A stretch of 64,000 bases of DNA from Owenia fusiformis (lineage: Eukaryota; Annelida; Polychaeta; Sabellida; Oweniidae): NCBI GenBank assembly GCA_903813345.2, contig CAIIXF020000009.1:37069759-37133758 (forward strand). Direction: 5' to 3'. The position numbers and the translations under genes are program-made. The notes beneath the pieces are model-generated. The model had not been told where the DNA came from. It did no database searches and saw only the letters and a list, made by a program, of their open reading frames with translations. Each line of letters starts with the position of its first letter. The stretch's first letter is position 1. This document shows positions 19,173-35,710 of this stretch, piece after piece.

Positions 19173-20868
19173 TTTATTTATTTATTTTTTATTTATTTAT
19201 TAGGATAAAACGCTTTTACAACAGCGGCACTACTTTTTAGTGTGCATCCAAAGAGACTAAAATACATACATACAATAGGTTAAAATCATTAAAAATACAT
19301 TTCCTTTAAAAATTCGTAAACACATTTCTCAAATTTATTTATTTGGTCCTGCCCCCATGTCCCTATGTAAAGTGAATCACCAATAATCCATTGTAGCTTA
19401 TCATTAAGGCTCGCTGATAAGTATTCACCTACAAGGGCAACGTCACATGAAGAGATTAAATTGTTAATGAATAGGTTTCTTTTATCCTGGAGGACGGGGC
19501 AAAGGAACAGGCGATGGGACATAGAGTCATAAGAATTGGAGGGGCCTAATTTACAAAAGCCATCACTTTTATTCCACCTTTTAAGGTCTGATTCTAATTT
19601 AAAACAACCCGACCTGGCTAAGAATTTTTGTCTTGCTCCTTGGAAGTTGAATGGGTTTTTTAGGTACTCTTCATGAAAGACATGTCTCTTAACATTTCTA
19701 TAAAGGGATAGGGATGGCCGGTTGCAAATTGATGAAAACAATTCCTTAGTAGTAATTTCGTTGGAAATATTGAGAAAGGATGAGTACCATTCTTCAGAAT
19801 TAACATTCAATTTATTATCGAGCCCATGGAGCACTAATATATTTGCTATGTTAGAAACATACTTCCAATTAGATTCTTTATTTATTGAATATGATTCCAA
19901 GAGGGCAGATAAAACCTTTGATACTAGGGTTTGTGAGTTCTTATTCTTTAGATACTGTAGCAGAAATAGTCAATTTGACGTTTTTGAAAGATCTTTTCAA
20001 TTGGACGCCAGCCCATATCACAGACAAGGGCTTCATAAGCTGGGGAACACTTAAGGCTAAGAATGGATAAACCAGCTTGGTATTGATACGACTTTAAATT
20101 TTTCTTCATTTCGCTTGTGTTTGGAAGGAGGACTCCTGCTCCATGTAATATTGAAGGAAGGAACATGTTATTATACATGGTGTTACCATATTGAATTCGT
20201 TGGATATTACAATGTTTGTTGAGGGTTGAGGTTATGTAACCTTTGAGCTTTTTTGATTTTAAACCAAGAATATTATTAATATGGTGCGAGTCTTTCAGTG
20301 TTTTGTCAAAATAAATGCCAAGGTACTTATATGTTTTTACTTCATTGAGGGAGAGCTCACCAAGCTTCCAAACTTTATGTTTGTTAACTTTTCCACCTAT
20401 GATCATAACTTGAGACTTTTTTGAGCTGAAACTAAACCCCCATTTTTTACCAAATTCGTTTGTAATATCAAGCATTCTACAGAGATCAGATTCGCTGGTA
20501 GCTGTGAGGACGATGTCATCTGCAAAAAGCAATGCGGGTAGAGTTAGATCTTTGAAAGGGATACCCATATCATTTTCGATCAGGCTGTCAATCAAATCGG
20601 TCATAATTACAGTAAATAGAGTAGGTGAGAGTACACATCCCTGTTTTAGGCCAGATTCAACTTCGAAACATTCACTACCAAAATTACCAAATATAACTTT
20701 GTTTTTGACACATGCGTATAGATTTTTCAATACACGCCAGGCTTTGCCCTGGATTCCTTTCTTCCAAAGAGATATAAAGACTTGTTCACGGTCAATAACG
20801 TCAAAGGCTTTCGATATATCGATGAAAGCTAGATAAGTCTTTTGATTTTTATCCCTAACTATATAATA
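19171..20868 (-). mobile_element. 5'-truncated, frameshifted LINE with RT core and zinc knuckle
   Basis: Frame 20860-19948 carries RT motif A (YLAFIDISKAFDVIDRE), SGLKQGCVLSPTLF and the catalytic box LLFADDIVL. A +/-1 shift near 19950-19990 moves the frame to 19289-19950 (YLKNKNSQTLVSKV...), which ends with a C..H..C knuckle (CKLGPSNSYDSMSHRLFLCP). A (TAAA)n-type tail lies at 19171-19203. The endonuclease half is missing. A stop codon just upstream of motif A at about 20870 marks the 5' break. Confidence 0.85.
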
Positions 20869-21316
20869 TTGAGAGGTCTAAGAAAATGTTGTATCTGCAA
20901 TTTTGTTCCAACAAGGTTTGGAAAGACATTTTATTTCATTCCCAAGAATTGGTAGAAAGGAACAAAAACCGATTGCACTAAAAACAATTTTTTTTTAACA
21001 AAAACAGTTATATAAAATATATATAAATTAAATTGTTGTCAATCAGTAAACGTGTTTTTTACAGAATGTTTTCAATAATTGGTTTAAGAGAAAAACATTG
21101 TTTAATTCAGTTCACCATATCGATACCTATCCTTTAGAGGGTTTTAGTGGTTTTATCGATAGTATCACATCACCGTTTTTAGGTTTCAGGTTATAGTACA
21201 ACTGGAGCAATCCATATGAAAAATAAAATCCGATGATATTCGAATGATACCTGTATATTATGTCCCCTGTTGCTTTGATTTCAACCTACGCTCTTGTAGA
21301 GACATATACAAGGCAT

Positions 21317-24014: not shown

Positions 24015-27000
24015 TCATGATTTCTCAATCAGAAGCTTGTGTAATTCCTCAGCGGTGTTCACGGGTTGGGCACATGTATAGTTTTCACATACATAAGCAG
24101 TTGCTTGGCCATCTTTACTTTTCATACTGTTCAAAATTGGTATATTTTCACAGAGGATGTTGTCCTTATTTCCATCAGCAACAATCAAGACTTTGTTTGG
24201 AATATAGTGCTGGTGCACTTCCTCTAATAGTCTCTTTGTTGTATCTACTTTTGGGTCCCCCTGTATTATAATCTGCAACAAAAACAGTTTTCCAACAAAC
24301 AGCATGATACACCAATTTTTGTTTTTGATGTTTTTTTATTTTAAAGATCTCAAATGAAATGAAAATACAGAGTTTTAAACCTGTAGATGAGAGAACATGC
24401 CTCAAAACATACAGTGCTTCAGATCATGCATACATTTAAAGAGAACTATTTACAAAATTACACTGATTTTTTCTGCTCCAGGGTTAAAATTTATGGCAAG
24501 AACTGGTTGCTTTAACCTAGAGGAGAACAATAAACGTTTAAAGTAAAGTAATTGTATTTGTCCTCACTGGAAATGTAATGACACTAAAGATTCTATACAT
24601 GATTCATTATATGTAATGCCCTCCCTTTAAAAATGAAAGGTTAGAATTTTAAGAGATATCTTTCAAATATGTTGCTCTTTAAGTAGGTAGTTCATCTTTC
24701 TTTCTTCAAAGAAAAACTAAAATATCTGTGAGGGAGTGATATCTTTGAAATTATGGGGGAAAAGAACGAGGAGTAAAGAATAATATAAGAAATGTTTTAT
24801 AAAAGGTTTTTAAAAACAGTTACCATACAGTAAATATTCCAAATGAATGCTCTTAGTGTAATTTATTAAATATTCGTTTTATCATTATATGTATAACTTG
24901 ACATACCTTTACAGGCAAGAGTGTCACTATTAGAAAAGTGTAAGTCAAAATAAATAAATGAATATTAACATAACTAAATTAATTTGTTGTACTTTATGGA
25001 ATTGATTATCTTAAGACACAATGGTTAATAATTCCTAGCACAAAAACATATAAGAGAATAATCAATTTGTTTTAATATTTGAAATGAATTATTTTTAGTT
25101 TACCTAGTATCCATTCCACTTTTTTTTATATTGATTTAAACAAAATATGAAATCTTTAACAATGTTTTTTTAAAAATACTATGGTTAAAGATATGCTTGT
25201 CTAAAATCATTTGTAATACCTGTTTTTGTGTCTCCAGAGAGTAGAAGAGGGAACATAGCATCTCTGGTAGTGCCATAGGGATCACATTCAACCTTAAAAA
25301 ATTATTAGTAATTACATATAATGGTAGCAAAGAACATGGCAAAAAGTAATTGATTGATAATTATTTAAGTTTAGTCCAAATCGGGCATGGTGTGTGAGGC
25401 CTGGAACAAAATGAGGTTCATTAAGACTCAATTATCATAAAAGAAATTATTTTTTATATAAAAAACAGCAGTCAAAAAATCAGTTAGCATTCAGTTTAAA
25501 TCGATCTGGAGAGTGGTTGAATATTAGTAATGACATATTGAAGTATAATTTTTCCAATTTTGAAATGAAATATCTATGTACTGGTACAAAACCTCAGTTT
25601 ATTGCAAAGTTAAGTTATTGTTAAGTTATTTAAGAAATAAGAAAAAAAGCAACCTGTCTGCAAATAAATTGAGAATCTGCTGTGCCTTAGCACTGTACCC
25701 AGCGTCATTGAAGTAGTGTGAAAGTCTGTACAAGTTACTGGCAGCCACAGAGTTGGCACTTGGCTCAGCACCATCTGCATCTGTGAAACATTGAGTTAGA
25801 GGTGCACATTCAAATCTGTGGGATTGTAATGGCTTTGGTATCTTTAAGTGTTCCACTTGGCAGGTGTTCAACTTATAGAGATTCATTTCATATTAAATTA
25901 ATAAATAAAATGACTTCCACATATGAAAGGTGTTCCATTTGGCAGGTGTTCAACTTATAGAGGTTCATTTCATATTAAATTAATAAGTAAAAGGACTTCC
26001 ACTTATGAAAGGTGTTCCATTTGGCAGGTGTTCAACTTATAGAGGTTCATTTCATATTAAATTAATAAGTAAAAGGACTTCCACTTATGAAAGGTGTTCC
26101 ATTTGGCATATTAAATTAATAAGTAAAAGGACTTCCACTTATGAAAGGTGTTCCACTTGGCAGGTGTTCAACTTATAGAGGTTCATTTCATATTAAATTA
26201 ATAAGTAAAAGGACTTCCACTTATGAAAGGTGTTCCATTTGGCAGGTGTTCAACTTATAGAGGTTCATTTCATATTAAATTAATAAGTAAAAGGACTTCC
26301 ACTTATGAAAGGTGTTCCATTTGGCAGGTGTTCAACTTATAGAGGTTCATTTCATATTAAATTAATAAGTAAAAGGACTTCCACTTATGAAAGGTGTTCC
26401 ACTTGGCAGGTGTTCAACTTATAGAGGTTCATTTCATATTAAATTAATAAGTAAAAGGACTTCCACTTATGAAAGGTGCTCCATTTGGCAGGTGTTCAAC
26501 TTATAGAGGTTCATTTCATATTAAATTAATAAGTAAAAGGACTTCCACTTATGAAAGGTGTTCCACTTGGCAGGTGTTCAACTTATAGAGATTCATTTCA
26601 TATTAAATTAATAAGTAAAAGGACTTCCACTTATGGAAAGTATTCCACTTAATTGGCAGGTGTTCCATTTTATCTATGGAGATGTTTTATGAGCACTTAC
26701 AGTAGAGGCATTCCATTTGCTTTACTGAACTAGAAATAGAAGCAGTCACTACCCCAATATAATCAATCTGATTCCAGATTTTAGGATTTCACCAGCCAAG
26801 TTTCAATGCTGAAGCTGGACTACTTTTGTTTCTAATTGGCTTTGATCAAAATTAGCCTCTTCAGGCAGTTTGAGGAACCTTTGTATCAGTGAAAGGCATT
26901 ATAAAATGAGAACATAGTTCTCTGTTATTCTAATGGTAGAATACAAGTAACTGAGCTGATCCGTCTTATTAGTCTTACATACAAAATTACAAATGTAGTC

Positions 27001-30000: not shown

Positions 30001-33000
30001 CCTGCACATTGCTCTTTTTTCAAAATTGAGAAGTTTGATTAATTCATTTTTTGAATTGAAAAATCAATCAAAACCTGGTAATGCATTAAATTCTACTTCA
30101 GGTAATACTTGTAGTGTAGTGCAAATGACAATAATATTTTCCACATGTACATGCACATGTAATAACAGGAAATATCCCAGGTATTTCCTGTTATTACAGT
30201 AATAACTCAAAACAGGGTTGATTAATTAATAAAGTGTTGTACAGTATAGTATTTTGGTTACCACCATATTTTGTTATTTGCATTGGTATGTTCCATATTT
30301 TCATATTTTATACATAAAGTCAGACCCAGAATCCCCTCCTTGGAGGAGCCCTGTGTTCTTTTATGTGCTCCGATAAACAGACATACAAGTACACACCACG
30401 GCATATACAAGTTGTGGACTACTCAGTCAAACATCCAGAATTACATAACACATAAAATCTAGACCAGGAAATATTGTGTAGGTTATGAGTAGGTTATTAG
30501 TTTAAATCAACTGAATTTGACTGGTTCTCTTTAACATACAATGTATATGTTCAGTCCACTGTTCACTGTTCTTGGGACAACAGCTCAACTAACCTGAGCT
30601 ATATGGTCATGTATTCCACCTTTAGCCATCATATTGAGGGTATGACCACATATCTTCAGACATTCGGCTCCTTTAATAGATGCTGGTTGGAAGGCATAAA
30701 GACGCATCAGAAAATTGAGGTTAACTGAAATAATTTTAAATAAAAATTCTATCTTTCTGGTAAGAATATGATATGGTTTAGAGCAAAACTTGGAGACAGT
30801 GCATGTGCACTCAAGAAACACACATGACATCTTTACAAAGATAGATATCCCTAAATGGAACTTTCTATTTACTTATGGACATTAAGCTTGTCCAATATGA
30901 AGTATAGCAATGAAATGAACCTTGATTTATTAAACAAAAGAAATACTCGTAAAATGGAAATACTTATACTGGAAATCTAATACTTACTCAAAATCTAATA
31001 CTTACTGGACATCCAAATCTTTAAATAATACTAGAAATCTACTATAATTCTGGAAAGAAGGATAGTCCTGTATAATCCAGATCTTTTTATGTATTATTTT
31101 CATGTCATGTTAAGGGGGGGGGTGTTGTTTAATTGCTCACTGGACATGGGTACTGTACTGGTAAGTATTTGTAAAGTATTTCTTTAATACAAATCTTCCT
31201 GAGAAGTCAGTCACTTACCTGGTTGCGGGAATTTAGGTTCTTTTCCAAATCCACCAAGGTCTTTATCAAATTGTGCATCGAACATTTGGAAGCATTTATA
31301 GATGGCATTAATGTCTACAACTGTTTCAGGAACAGGTTTTATGTCAGAATGACGTAGCAAAGTGTCAAGAATAGATGTGCCTTTCTCTGATATTATTTTA
31401 TGGTCCTTGGCCCACTGGAAAGTGGATAATCATATTTTATTGAAAAACTTTTATATGGATGCATGATGATATATATACATGTATATAGCAGATCAGACAG
31501 GACTGATACAAATTAAGATACATGTACATGACATTTCCGGAAGACTTAAATCTGTATGAATTGTAGTCACAAAGTCACAATTTATCCTATAGAACCAAAA
31601 CTTCAAAATGCTTAAAATAGTGCCAAGTTAAAATTGTGGAATATTGAGGTGGTTGAATATTTTTGACGTATCACTATGTTTGCATATCATCAATTACCAT
31701 AATTTGTTAAATAATTCATACTTCTGATGCAATCTTTAACAGAATTGTCTTGAAGCCTGGTCTGCCCTCATACTTTCCATCTGGTGGGAAGTATGTGCCC
31801 CCAACTATTGGTTTTAGATCTGGGGTCAGCCACACGCTCATAGGCCAACCACCTCCGCCTGATGTGGCCTGAAAAATATGTAAAACAAGTTAAGAGACTG
31901 TAAAATCTGCATGTTTCTAAGTAATCAAATGATATCTCTAGAAGTCAATGCAGATGCAAAAGGCATACTTTACATGTACTGCTGATTTGATGGTATAATA
32001 CTTTCTGCCATTGATACTACAATTTATTTTCACTAATTTGGCAATTTCTGGAAAGTAAGTCTACTGCATTCAGTTTTCCCACTTCAGGTTCCATTTAACA
32101 GTTTGCCTTACACAAAAAGATTTTACCATGAAGAATTTGTACGAAGATTATAAAATCCCCTTTGCCGAAGAAATGGGAATGTTATGTTTTGGAAATTCAG
32201 ACTTCACAGATATTCGATTTGCAAATTTATCCATTTTAATAGCTCGTGAAATATTCATGAAAATACAGAAATAATCATGCAAAACTTGTATAACTGCCAT
32301 ATGTATTACTTGTATAAATGTCATGTAGACTTTGTCCACATCAAGACGTTCCTCTCTGTCCACCTTAATGCTGACAAAGTATTCATTTAGAATATCTCCA
32401 ATTTCCTGGTCCTCAAATGATTCATGTTCCATCACATGACACCAATGACAGGTAGAATACCCAACTAAAATATATGTACATCATATACATCATGTATCAG
32501 GTATTAAACAAATCTGAATTCACACAATTCTGAATTTTTTAGAATTTTGCATCTTTCTAAATACAGTAAAACTTGTGTATAGTGAACATTTTTTTGCCAA
32601 GAAAAAGCGTTCACTGTAGGTAGGTGTTCACTAGAGAGAGGGTAATTTATACAGAAGTCAGTGGACTATGTGCGTAGGAAGGGTGTCCACTAGAGACAGG
32701 TGTTCACTAGAGAGAGATGTTCACTAAGACAGGTTTTACTGTATATGATTTTTTCCATTATTGATACTTCATGTTATGGTAATCATTAAATAAAAAATCT
32801 ATTGTTTCAAAAACAGATTAAGAATAAAAAATATTCTTGTTTCCCTAACACTGAGTTTCTACTTTTAAAAAATACTGTCCCTTTTTATGTCATAAAATCA
32901 TACCATGTTCAAAGATAGCAAAATAATTATCCCAGCTGTGAAAACAGTTGCTGATAAAAAATGTTGTATAGGTTAGAAATGAGCGAGCTGGGACATTTTC

Positions 33001-35710
33001 TTTTACATGGAAAAACCTTTCTGACATCCACTGATCATAAAAACAACTTTTTGAATGACTACCTGATAGGAAAATAAGTTTATCCTCAGCCCTAGCTTTC
33101 TCAAATGCCTCCCTGCCCCATGGATACCTGAAAAAAAGTTGTCTTGAATCAAAAACCATTGTGCATCTCTTACGCCTGCACTTTCTAGAGGGCTTTGTAT
33201 AAAAAACGTCCTACCTCATACCCACCTACCCACGTACGTTGGACATGATACAGTCTTTGAAGGGTTCAATTTTAAAAATCTTAGTTTATTAAATCTTAGT
33301 TTATGATGAATTATAGATGGATTTGTAACGACCCTTGATAGCAAGTTGCTACTACAGCCCAGCTGGGTTTGATTCCCACTCGGGGCATCAAATTTAGCAC
33401 ACTTTCTTTCAATTTCTTTATCTGGCTGGTAGGGTCCTATGCTCACGGTCATTAGTTAGTTATTCCACTGGTGCGCCCTCTGGTCATTACCATTAAAATG
33501 CACCCATATGCCTTTATTTATGGATCTGTCATTCATCTAGTCATAAAATAAAGCTGCTAGTAGAAATGTTAATAATTAGAGCTATTTTGAGATTTAAAAA
33601 TCTTTAAAATTGAACACTTCAATGACTGTATCATGTCCCACGTAGGTGGATAGGTGGGTATGAGGTAGGAGGTTTTTTATACAAAGCCCTTTCTAGAGTT
33701 CTAGGCAGTTTGGGGCTAGAGACTTGTTCAAAGTCTAAATAGATAATGTGACTTCCAAAACTACAGTTACGTGGATGCTTTGGTAGATAGGTGGACTTAC
33801 CAATCTACAGAGTTAGTTGCATGCTTTGGTAGATAGGTGGACTTACCAATCTACAGAGTAACTTGCATGCTTTGGTAGATAGGTGGACTTACAAATCTAC
33901 AGAGTTACTTGCATGCTTTGGTAGATAGGTGGACTTACCAATCTACAGAGTAACTTGCATGCTGTGGTAGATAGGTGGACTTACCAATCTACAGAGTAAC
34001 TTGCATGTTGTGGTAGATAGGTGGACTTACCAATCTACAGAGTAACTTGCATGCTTTGGTAGATAGGTGTACTTACCAATCTACAGAGTTACTTGCATGC
34101 TGTGGTAGATAGGTGGACTTACCAATCTAAAGAGTAACTTGCATGCTTTGGTAGATAGGTGGGCTTACCAATCTACGGAGTTACTTGCATGCTGTGGTAG
34201 ATAGGTGGACTTACCAATCTACAGAGTAACTTGCATGCTTTGGTAGATAGGTGGACTTACCAATCTACAGAGTAACTTGCATGTTGTGGAAGATAGGTGG
34301 AATTACCAATCTACAGAGTTACTTGCATGTTGTGGTAGATAGGTGGACTTACCAGTCTACATAGTAACTTACATGTTGTGGTAGATAGGTGGACTTACCA
34401 ATCTACAGGGTTATTTGCATGCTGTAGTAGATACGGGGACTTCTCCATAGCCAGTCTGTTGGTTCCTCTTGCCTGATCCCCTGATGAAGTAGCCATGGCC
34501 CTGAAACAAGAGGCAAGGTTGATTAAAATATATTTTTCTTCACATTTAAGGTTCAATATGTTCAACTTGTTCATCCCACACCTACTTTCTATCTAAAGAC
34601 TGATAGACATGGAATGATTTACTTTTGCCTGAAGTCTATTGGCTCTATTATATTTTAAAGTTAATATATAGCATGGCAGTTATTTACATTTTGAGGTTTT
34701 CACTTAAACAAGGCGTTTACACACATATTACATAAACTATTTACTCTAAACTGAGTACTCGTTTGCTATCTTTAAAAAAAAGACAAAAGTAGTGACATCT
34801 ACATGTAAATGCATTTATATAAGAAATTTTATATACGATAATTTATTACTATTGAACTACCGGATTTTCTCGCATATAAGCCCTGGGCGTATAACTGAAA
34901 GAAGGGGTAATTTCGTCTGTTATTTTACCTCTTATTTTTCGCCCATGGGCGTATAAGTGTACTACTTTCGATTTTTGGCCCAGTGGGCGTAAAGGTGGGC
35001 ATCAGCCATCTTCCTCAAAGACTACCGTACCTACTCGGTTGTAGTCCTACCGCATGTTTTGTAAGAATTATAAAGGAAATGTCACCTACAACCTTGGACT
35101 TAATGTTGAAACAAAGTAACAACAGAACGATCCACCACTGCCACTTACGGCACAGCGTTGAACTTAATGTTGAAACGACAGAACGATCTGCCAGTGACAA
35201 AATACCCTTGAATTTATTCAAAAAATCAATAAATAGTCATTTTTTATAGGCCCATGGGCGTATAAGCGTTCTACATTCGATTTTTGGCTCATGGGCCTAA
35301 ATTTAGGGGGGCGTATATGCGAGAAAATCCGGTAATACAAGGACAAATTCCTGTCAAATCTATCAGGCCTTAATAGATACAGTAGGGTATATTGTTCAAA
35401 TGTGTTTTGCATGCTTGCCCCATCTTTTTATCTTATTTACTAAGAATCAGGAACAATGAACAAGCAGAACAATGTAAAGCATATACATGCTAAACTCAAA
35501 GGGTAAGATCCCTAACAAAGCCCTAAATACTGCACACATTATAAATATCATATACCTGAATATGCATTTAGAGTATAAGTATCTGCTGTTATTAGTCGCA
35601 GATGTCTGCCTTAATATTGTACCAAATCTTGGGTAATTAGTTGTTCTTAGTGGCTGCACATTTGCCAATAGTCTTTGCACAGTAGGAGCATATGGGACAG
35701 TTCTAAGCAT
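24015..35710 (-). CDS. SPATA20: SPATA20 homologue (DUF255/YyaL family, thioredoxin-like plus six-hairpin domain), complete
   Basis: Fifteen coding exons: 35556-35710, 34399-34500, 33063-33127, 32310-32464, 31722-31868, 31219-31414, 30594-30724, 29689-29868, 29037-29246, 28622-28814, 27632-27800, 27137-27345, 25654-25780, 25220-25292, 24015-24272. Lengths sum to 2370 bp, i.e. 789 aa; human SPATA20 is similar in length. All phases agree and junctions are GT-AG. Residues 1-51 are an Arg-rich, acid-free leader resembling a mitochondrial presequence. Family motifs: [14 protein letters not shown] (about 73-86), the thioredoxin-like GYSTCHWC (109-116), [27 protein letters not shown] (about 328-340), [12 protein letters not shown] (378-389), DGAEPSANS (about 640-648) and the C-terminal QATAYVCEN. 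Known: the N-terminal part has a thioredoxin fold and the rest resembles an alpha/alpha six-barrel; mammalian SPATA20 is linked to spermatogenesis, exact reaction unsettled. The donors of exon 12 (GTGCAA) and exon 5 (GTATGA) are weak. An in-frame ATG at 35788 would add 26 residues. Confidence 0.93.
24905..24965 (+). mobile_element. LINE/SINE 3' tail, second copy
   Basis: GAAAAGTGTAAGTC then AAAATAAATAAATGAAT, matching the tail at 22185-22220. It lies in the last intron of SPATA20. Confidence 0.45.
25857..26665. repeat. 82-bp minisatellite in SPATA20 intron 12, about 9.5 copies
   Basis: The phrase CAGGTGTTCAACTTATAGAG recurs at 25861, 25943, 26025, 26161, 26243, 26325, 26407, 26489 and 26571. 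Spacing is 82 bp, with one unit near 26107 internally deleted. Copies are nearly identical, so the array is young. It lies between exons 12 and 13 and starts about 80 bp from exon 13. Confidence 0.93.
27887..28494. mobile_element. 608-bp TIR element in SPATA20 intron 10
   Basis: Begins AGGGTGTCAAATAAGTCCC and ends with the inverted copy (..ACTTATTTGACACCCT). The inverted similarity runs about 100 bp (GGTACC..TGTGATATATCATTGGAAAG against its complement). Non-coding. Target duplication not clear. Confidence 0.6.
30159..30197. repeat. Perfect 16-bp stem hairpin in SPATA20 intron 7
   Basis: GTAATAACAGGAAATA (30159-30174), a 7-base spacer, then its exact reverse complement (30182-30197). It could form a cruciform or an RNA hairpin. 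The 16-bp stem is short for a microRNA precursor. Confidence 0.7.
32310..32464 (-). CDS. SPATA20: SPATA20 exon 4, thioredoxin-like CHWC motif
   Basis: The split codon from exon 3 (G + TT = Val) leads into [19 protein letters not shown]113 and C116 are spaced like a thioredoxin CxxC active site, which suggests redox capacity is kept. The exon ends at TTTATACAA followed by GTAATAC, phase 0, then joins [10 protein letters not shown] of exon 5. Confidence 0.92.
32572..32743. mobile_element. 168-bp pogo-like MITE in SPATA20 intron 3
   Basis: CAGTAAAAC at 32574 and GTTTTACTG ending at 32741, with TA on both sides. The interior repeats GTTCACTAGAGAGAG. Same end sequence as the element at 41245-41699. 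Confidence 0.7.
33182..33697. mobile_element. 500-bp hAT-like TIR element with 8-bp target duplication, in SPATA20 intron 2
   Basis: Element 33190-33689 is bounded by TTTCTAGA on both sides (33182-33189 and 33690-33697). Its ends GGGCTTTGTATAAAAAACG and the reverse complement continue as an imperfect inverted repeat of about 100 bp each. An 8-bp duplication is the hAT signature. No transposase is present. The middle (about 33330-33400) holds a tRNA-promoter-like stretch with GGGTTTGATTCCC. Confidence 0.75.
33744..34433. repeat. 46-bp minisatellite built from the SPATA20 exon 2/intron 2 junction, 14-15 copies
   Basis: Period is exactly 46 bp: unit starts at 33790 and then every 46 bp to 34388, with a degenerate extra unit near 33744. 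On the minus strand each unit is 35 bp matching the end of exon 2 (TATCTACTACAGCATGC... to GTAGATTG) plus GTAAGTCCACC from the intron. The copy at 34388-34433 is the functional one, as it encodes the conserved [12 protein letters not shown]. Twelve of the 13 downstream copies keep GTAAG after the pseudo-exon end. Confidence 0.95.
34399..34500 (-). CDS. SPATA20: SPATA20 exon 2, carrying the conserved [13 protein letters not shown] motif and the founder copy of a minisatellite
   Basis: 102-bp exon, acceptor TTTCAG at 34501-34506, donor GTAAGTCC starting at 34398. It encodes A-M-A-T-S-S and then the diagnostic [14 protein letters not shown]. Its last 35 bp (34399-34433) plus 11 bp of intron are the unit repeated downstream in the intron. 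An ATG right at the start of this exon (residue 54 of the longer form) could give a leaderless, cytosolic product if transcription began in intron 1; that is inference. Confidence 0.92.
34858..35334. mobile_element. TA-flanked TIR element (mariner/pogo type), in SPATA20 intron 1
   Basis: Element 34860-35332 starts CCGGATTTTCTCGCATATA and ends with its inverted copy GCGAGAAAATCCGG, with TA on each side. The phrase GGGCGTATAAG recurs inside. Non-autonomous; no transposase frame. Confidence 0.7.

Follow-up and report, generated by a model that had tools for sequence, protein, structure and literature searches.

The window, a 64,000-nucleotide stretch of Owenia fusiformis DNA, carries on its minus strand a DUF255 gene with a PF03190 domain, which we take to be SPATA20 as a relative of human SPATA20. 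Exon 2 (34399-34500, 102 nt) is flanked by the acceptor TTTCAG and the donor GTAAGT, ends in phase 2 at a tryptophan (W), and is supported by PF03190 and by PDB entry 3ira. Exon 3 (33063-33127, 65 nt), running from (W) to (V), is placed by its splice sites and the joined translation, and exons 4 (32310-32464), starting with (V), and 5 (31722-31868), ending GAA|GTATGA, by the PF03190 match and the joined translation. The ends of exon 6 (31219-31414), which has its own donor CAG|GTAAGT, were set by eye. Joined exons 2-5 match Pfam PF03190 (Thioredox_DsbH) with E=3.4e-70 over positions 1-141 of the 163 in the profile, and the protein carries a CHWCH motif. The archaeal homologue 3ira aligns to the joined exons with E=9.6e-60 and without a gap over the exon 2/3 junction, NPVDW|YPWG. 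The PF03190 match and this gapless alignment place the end of exon 2 at 34399. Splicing of these exons is predicted from sequence, including use of exon 2's own donor (34393-34398, minus strand, TTG|GTAAGTCC), for which phase and protein continuity argue. A PF03190 search of the genome gave two matches, both within this gene. Around 32336-32355 (minus strand) REERLDVDK stands in the protein at a place where REERPDID is found in the two best solved homologues. Elsewhere in the window, a tandem array with an 82-bp unit (96-97% match) occupies 25848-26665, and a minus-strand frame near it probably belongs to this gene as one of its later exons.

A second tandem array lies across the 3' end of exon 2. 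TRF places it at 33775-34442, with a period of 46, 14.5 copies, 92% match and no indels, in agreement with the 14-15 copies of a 46-bp unit proposed in the initial annotation. Read on the minus strand, it begins within exon 2 and continues unbroken into intron 2, also as proposed, and the alignment supports the exon being part of it: the founder copy, the exonic part of the repeat unit, covers about 44 nt at the 3' end of the exon (34399-34442), and 38 of its 44 aligned bases equal the unit consensus. There follow 14 intronic units of 46 bp (33755-34398), each opened by a donor-like site, the last one degenerate at the far end. Counting the real donor at 34398, 14 donors thus stand at 46-nt steps from 34398 to 33800. 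All 14 keep GT and 13 keep GTAAG, the exception being GTAATT at 34306; our recount of the copies downstream of the real donor gives the same 12 of 13 with GTAAG as reported before. As a small correction, the pseudo-exon context is not exact in every copy: one donor follows CTG and another TTT, not TTG. A further degenerate copy without GT sits at about 33754, and the stretch 33735-33754 (minus strand, extent by eye), where the donor GT is lost, is either a degenerate array edge or original intron flank. The first unit differs from the consensus at 4 positions, the last at 11 and the twelve between at 0 to 3. Divergent end units are usual in tandem arrays; the inner homogeneity and divergent edges are seen here in few units of a single allele.

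Intron 2 is 1,271 nt long, and the array takes up 644 nt of it. From exon 2 onwards, the intron consists of the array (34398-33755), 55 nt, a 520-nt foldback element and 52 nt before exon 3. The foldback element (33180-33699), which fills most of the remaining intron, has 103-nt inverted arms that are 88% complementary and is dispersed in the genome: of 1372 first-look candidates, the 40 that were scored are without exception long matches at 90-100% identity, and the listed matches are spread over contigs C1 to C12. Another foldback element, with 32-nt arms, lies upstream of exon 2 at 34852-35340, and a 309-codon open frame at 19948-20877 (minus strand) resembles by eye a LINE reverse transcriptase (LLFADDIVL).

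The dispersed element next to the array raises the idea that the array itself is a dispersed satellite or a transposable element, inserted into the intron and like the exon only by chance. Across 498 Mb and allowing at most 3 mismatches, a 25-mer of the unit matches 14 times, always inside the array, and the reversed 25-mer pattern has no match at the same tolerance, so that the array exceeds chance as an array. As a whole it matches one place in the one assembly examined. With no second copy found at up to 3 mismatches in 498 Mb, a dispersed satellite origin was ruled out; as 44 of the 46 unit columns moreover align to a coding exon, we regard a chance likeness as extremely improbable. Tandem arrays are often collapsed or expanded in assemblies, and only one assembly was at hand, but different private variants are found along the units, which simple stutter would not produce. 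A copy number that is an assembly artefact is therefore highly improbable.

The relation between unit and exon shows the exon to be the founder, as the initial annotation held. The unit had been described there as 35 bp of exon plus 11 bp of intron. That split is one possible cut; the best alignment makes 44 of 46 columns exon-like, because GAAGTCC in the exon and the donor GTAAGTCC have the six bases AAGTCC in common. The exon copy encodes a 14-residue stretch that equals the archaeal 3ira protein except for one residue, whereas the unit consensus changes 5 of the 14 codons relative to the exon, none synonymously and all five non-synonymously. Since all five differences are non-synonymous and the protein of the exon is conserved, with the gapless archaeal alignment across the junction, the units are untranslated copies and the exon is their origin.

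Minisatellites across exon-intron boundaries have been described from amphioxus genes as mirages (PMC3087553, PMC3902484). The SPATA20 unit spans the boundary of a real coding exon and its intronic copies keep splice signals (14/14 GT, 13/14 GTAAG), and we consider it probable that this array is a mirage too, a neutral minisatellite born by slippage, in which only the first donor is used and the decoys are silent. Judged from the sequence, the first duplication was probably joined at the shared AAGTCC: a tandem duplication would have joined AAGTCC within exon 2 to that of the donor (GTAAGTCC) and put the exon tail and donor core into intron 2. Slippage or unequal exchange would then have brought the array up to 14 units and evened out those in its interior. 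The spliceosome would pick the first donor, the earliest to be made and the one that delimits the complete exon; the decoys, themselves neutral, would be removed with the intron, leaving the gene working. By analogy with the length instability reported for amphioxus mirages (PMC3087553, PMC3902484), copy number of the SPATA20 array likely varies between individuals (precedent in PMC3087553).

How the first site would win is not visible in its own nine bases, as the computed U1 pairing of 10 of the 13 decoys is equally strong or stronger. The real donor has a computed pairing energy of -9.1 kcal/mol; nine decoys, identical to it in all nine bases, equal this value, one is stronger (-10.5) and three are weaker (-8.0, -5.4 and -5.1 kcal/mol). 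Two further ideas were rejected. A fold exposing the real donor alone is not apparent, as this donor ranks second or third most open of the 14 under two settings and is not distinct, and by reading the units are not recursive splice sites, since they read TTG|GTAAGT and not AG|GT. Several published observations count against silent decoys. SRSF1 with an enhancer between two sites can, it is reported, favour the intron-proximal donor (PMC5585400); such a preference would favour the last decoy in the SPATA20 array and counts against use of the first donor. Minisatellites at exon-intron boundaries in human segmental duplications reportedly give rise to new introns, and 66% of intron modifications are stated to come with alternative transcripts that retain the repeat (PMC2812944); a C. 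elegans minisatellite is reported as over-represented near alternative splicing regions (PMC4039745). The link that these two reports draw between minisatellites and alternative splicing slightly lowers the odds that the array is silent.

Use of a decoy would have consequences. Translation through decoys 1, 2 and 13 stops after residue 33 (TGG-TAA), directly after Val-Asp-Trp as predicted beforehand, and the remaining decoys would do the same because later decoys retain the bases of the first donor. Decoy use could in this way give a non-productive isoform, likely decayed, either regulated or as tolerated noise. The computed strength of most decoys, equal to that of the real donor, and the frequent alternative transcripts at human boundary minisatellites (PMC2812944) fit such an isoform, but nothing in the array favours any particular decoy, and we hold this to be quite unlikely.

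Selective maintenance of the decoys was examined by a column test, whose premise is that selectively kept decoys should vary less at donor columns; it has low power and is blind to weak selection. In the SPATA20 array, variation is seen in 4 of the 9 donor columns and in 10 of the 37 remaining ones. Pooled with eight other arrays, those divisible into units by script (two, L020 and L027, were not and were left out), the counts are 16/81 donor and 55/303 other columns (Fisher p=0.75), and 36/1,206 donor and 124/4,459 other cells are off consensus. Within the limits of this low-power test, no selective conservation of donor columns is found in the SPATA20 array or in the nine pooled arrays. One array goes against the pooled result: next to the DCAF17 exon (L019, C1:15530700-15535400), 17/162 donor cells differ against 12/504 others, GT is kept at 13 of 19 sites, and the decoys may be decaying.

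These counts bear on a role for the decoys of the kind raised in the initial annotation, where they would compete for U1 or tune splicing. They might bind U1, delay or adjust the splicing of intron 2, or shield it from premature cleavage, so that copy number sets SPATA20 output. The computed U1 pairing of 10 of the 13 decoys, which matches or beats that of the real donor, the 644 of 1,271 nt that the array fills and the tie between intronic minisatellites and splicing elsewhere (PMC4039745) speak for a role. Against it stand the absence of excess conservation at donor columns in SPATA20 or the pool, the similar arrays at unrelated exons, at acceptors too, and the report that amphioxus mirages do not interfere with splicing (PMC3087553). 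The proposed role is thus not borne out and we consider it unlikely; neutral decoys are the simplest reading overall.

Donor arrays recur at other exons. We searched the whole genome (498 Mb) for three GGTAAGT motifs spaced 27-57 nt apart. The matches listed, about the first 100, all lie on contig C1 below 58.8 Mb and comprise 13 distinct sites besides SPATA20, all of which were fetched. Ten of these 13 have an open exon-like frame at the array start, most of them with an acceptor-like site by eye. Among the matches listed, the exon ends at five of the 13 sites are supported by Pfam at E<=0.001, a threshold chosen because a translated repeat (L056) scored E=0.0014, which we treat as chance. 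The five are exons of BLOC1S5/Muted (L017), DCAF17 (L019), an NIF phosphatase (L023, with CTDNEP1 in PDB at E=5.6e-12), Ssl1 (L025) and UPRTase (L027, C1:58369300-58374600); their automatically cut peptides pass as well, that of L025 being the identical peptide. The BLOC1S5 array has 32 donor sites, 29 of them with GT. Weaker matches are a tetraspanin (L016, E 0.016-0.058) and TSP1 (L020, E 0.026-0.028), and L018, L021 and L022 are exons by open frame alone; the only Pfam match of L021, to a viral family at E=0.038, was treated as chance. The three remaining sites are negative: no exon at L024, no array at L026, and L028 runs off the fetched stretch. Also on C1, eleven homeodomain matches lie at 17.97-18.47 Mb, one of them (L029) with the Lox5 tail KLTGP, which we take to be a spiralian mark. 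The Hox cluster of O. fusiformis is reported on chromosome 1 (PMC9977687). A search for COX1 gave no match.

As a control, the same automatic cut was applied to the 20 TGAATGG sites listed on C1, leaving out one listed C2 site. One of the 20 reaches Pfam E<=0.001, against 5 of 13 GGTAAGT sites among the matches listed (one-sided Fisher p=0.025); nine of the control peptides were under 20 residues, not scannable and scored as misses, so that 11 were scanned. The one control hit (L072, C1:48883890-48884280) is itself another mirage, an array that starts where a histone deacetylase exon ends in G|GTCAGT, a rarer donor. A further two control sites are possible mirages: at L077 an open frame precedes TGAATG|GTAAGT, and the array of L063 is, on the opposite strand, that of site L083 in the GGTGAGT listing. 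This listing has eight sites, with an open frame at five (L083, L084, L085, L088, L089) and none at L082, L086 and L087; L085 (Rieske, E=3.4e-8) is the only Pfam-supported site among the eight. On the acceptor side, 20 TTTCAGG sites on C1 were considered, 19 of them fetched for this purpose and one lying in L027, and the peptides of eight, picked by eye, were scanned. A Pfam-supported exon directly follows the last copy at 4 of the 20: Neur_chan_LBD (L044), 7tm_3 (L051), nSTAND3 (L058) and UPRTase (L027). Two dispersed repeats seem instead to account for at least five of the 20 sites (L045, L050 and L059; L049 and L052). The UPRTase-like exon has acceptor copies upstream and donor copies downstream, hence mirages on both sides, and boundary arrays occur at both exon ends.

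Raw motif matches were 675+483 for the GGTAAGT triplet against 559+680 for the reversed motif, 528+443 against 335+203 for GGTGAGT, and 518+637 against 229+86 for TTTCAGG. For GGTAAGT these raw matches show donor arrays to be no commoner across the genome than arrays of the reversed motif; such counts are swayed by a few large arrays, and no conclusion rests on them. We make no claim that donors are over-represented, because some GGTAAGT sites will be true donors in any case. Six GGTAAGT sites in the window lie outside the array, one a certain donor and three more possible donors without a Pfam match at E<=0.001, and on these six no array enrichment above the true-donor share is established. 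The units may be biased towards exon sequence: their intronic part is at most 13 nt in 9 of 11 arrays (mean share p=0.0037, or 0.013 without SPATA20), with the exon shares of L020 and L027 taken from TRF edges. This is only a lead, and the GGTGAGT sample is mixed, with exonic parts of 31/33 nt (L084), 36/41 (L089) and 6/38 (L085) and the periods of L083 and L088 misjudged. In an eye count noticed post hoc, 4 of 10 arrays have AGT in common between the exon and donor positions +4 to +6. By arithmetic, and not as a count, ten sites per 58.8 Mb scale to about 85 in 498 Mb for the GGTAAGT motif at this spacing. We offer tentatively, as somewhat doubtful, that in this genome splice sites are minisatellite hot spots and that on the order of at least 100 exons have arrays of their own donor or acceptor. 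Such arrays would arise by slippage between a short exon match and the splice signal, and a robust first-donor rule would keep genes working despite runs of near-identical donors.

Boundary minisatellites beyond lancelets are already known from human segmental duplications (PMC2812944), and we found no report of a mirage from an annelid in the open-licence literature searched. The new part is the scope, namely SPATA20 and several Pfam-confirmed exons on one chromosome of a spiralian genome, and this recurrence over exons is the part worth following. As mirages are described in that literature from few amphioxus genes, it indicates a process that is no lancelet oddity. The arrays also offer natural donor series in real genes (14 in SPATA20, 32 in BLOC1S5) for a direct test of choice among equal 5' splice sites, and are possible raw material for new introns. 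Amphioxus mirages are the nearest published counterpart: their tandem units are reported to straddle the boundary on its 5' or 3' side and to retain splice signals in many copies, and homogenisation is described for the interior of a cluster but not for its edges (PMC3087553, PMC3902484). Regular splicing is reported to be undisturbed there, according to Adh3 data and globin RT-PCR (PMC3087553, PMC3902484). The case here differs in its spiralian host, in its gene, SPATA20, in the 14 donors of a single intron and in its recurrence at several exons of one chromosome. The human minisatellites have units of about 30 bp, and some share the boundary location, but they are tied by report to alternative transcripts and new introns of recently arisen paralogues (PMC2812944), whereas SPATA20 is one gene with an apparently unaltered coding sequence. 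Splice signals are also copied in intron gain through tandem duplication of AG/GT proto-splice sites (cited in PMC3087553); there a new intron arises within an exon, whereas here an existing intron is enlarged. In DOK7 intron 4, too, neighbouring donors compete for U1, but that system is described with two sites under SRSF1 control (PMC5585400), whereas SPATA20 has 14 near-identical sites in which no sign of such control is seen.
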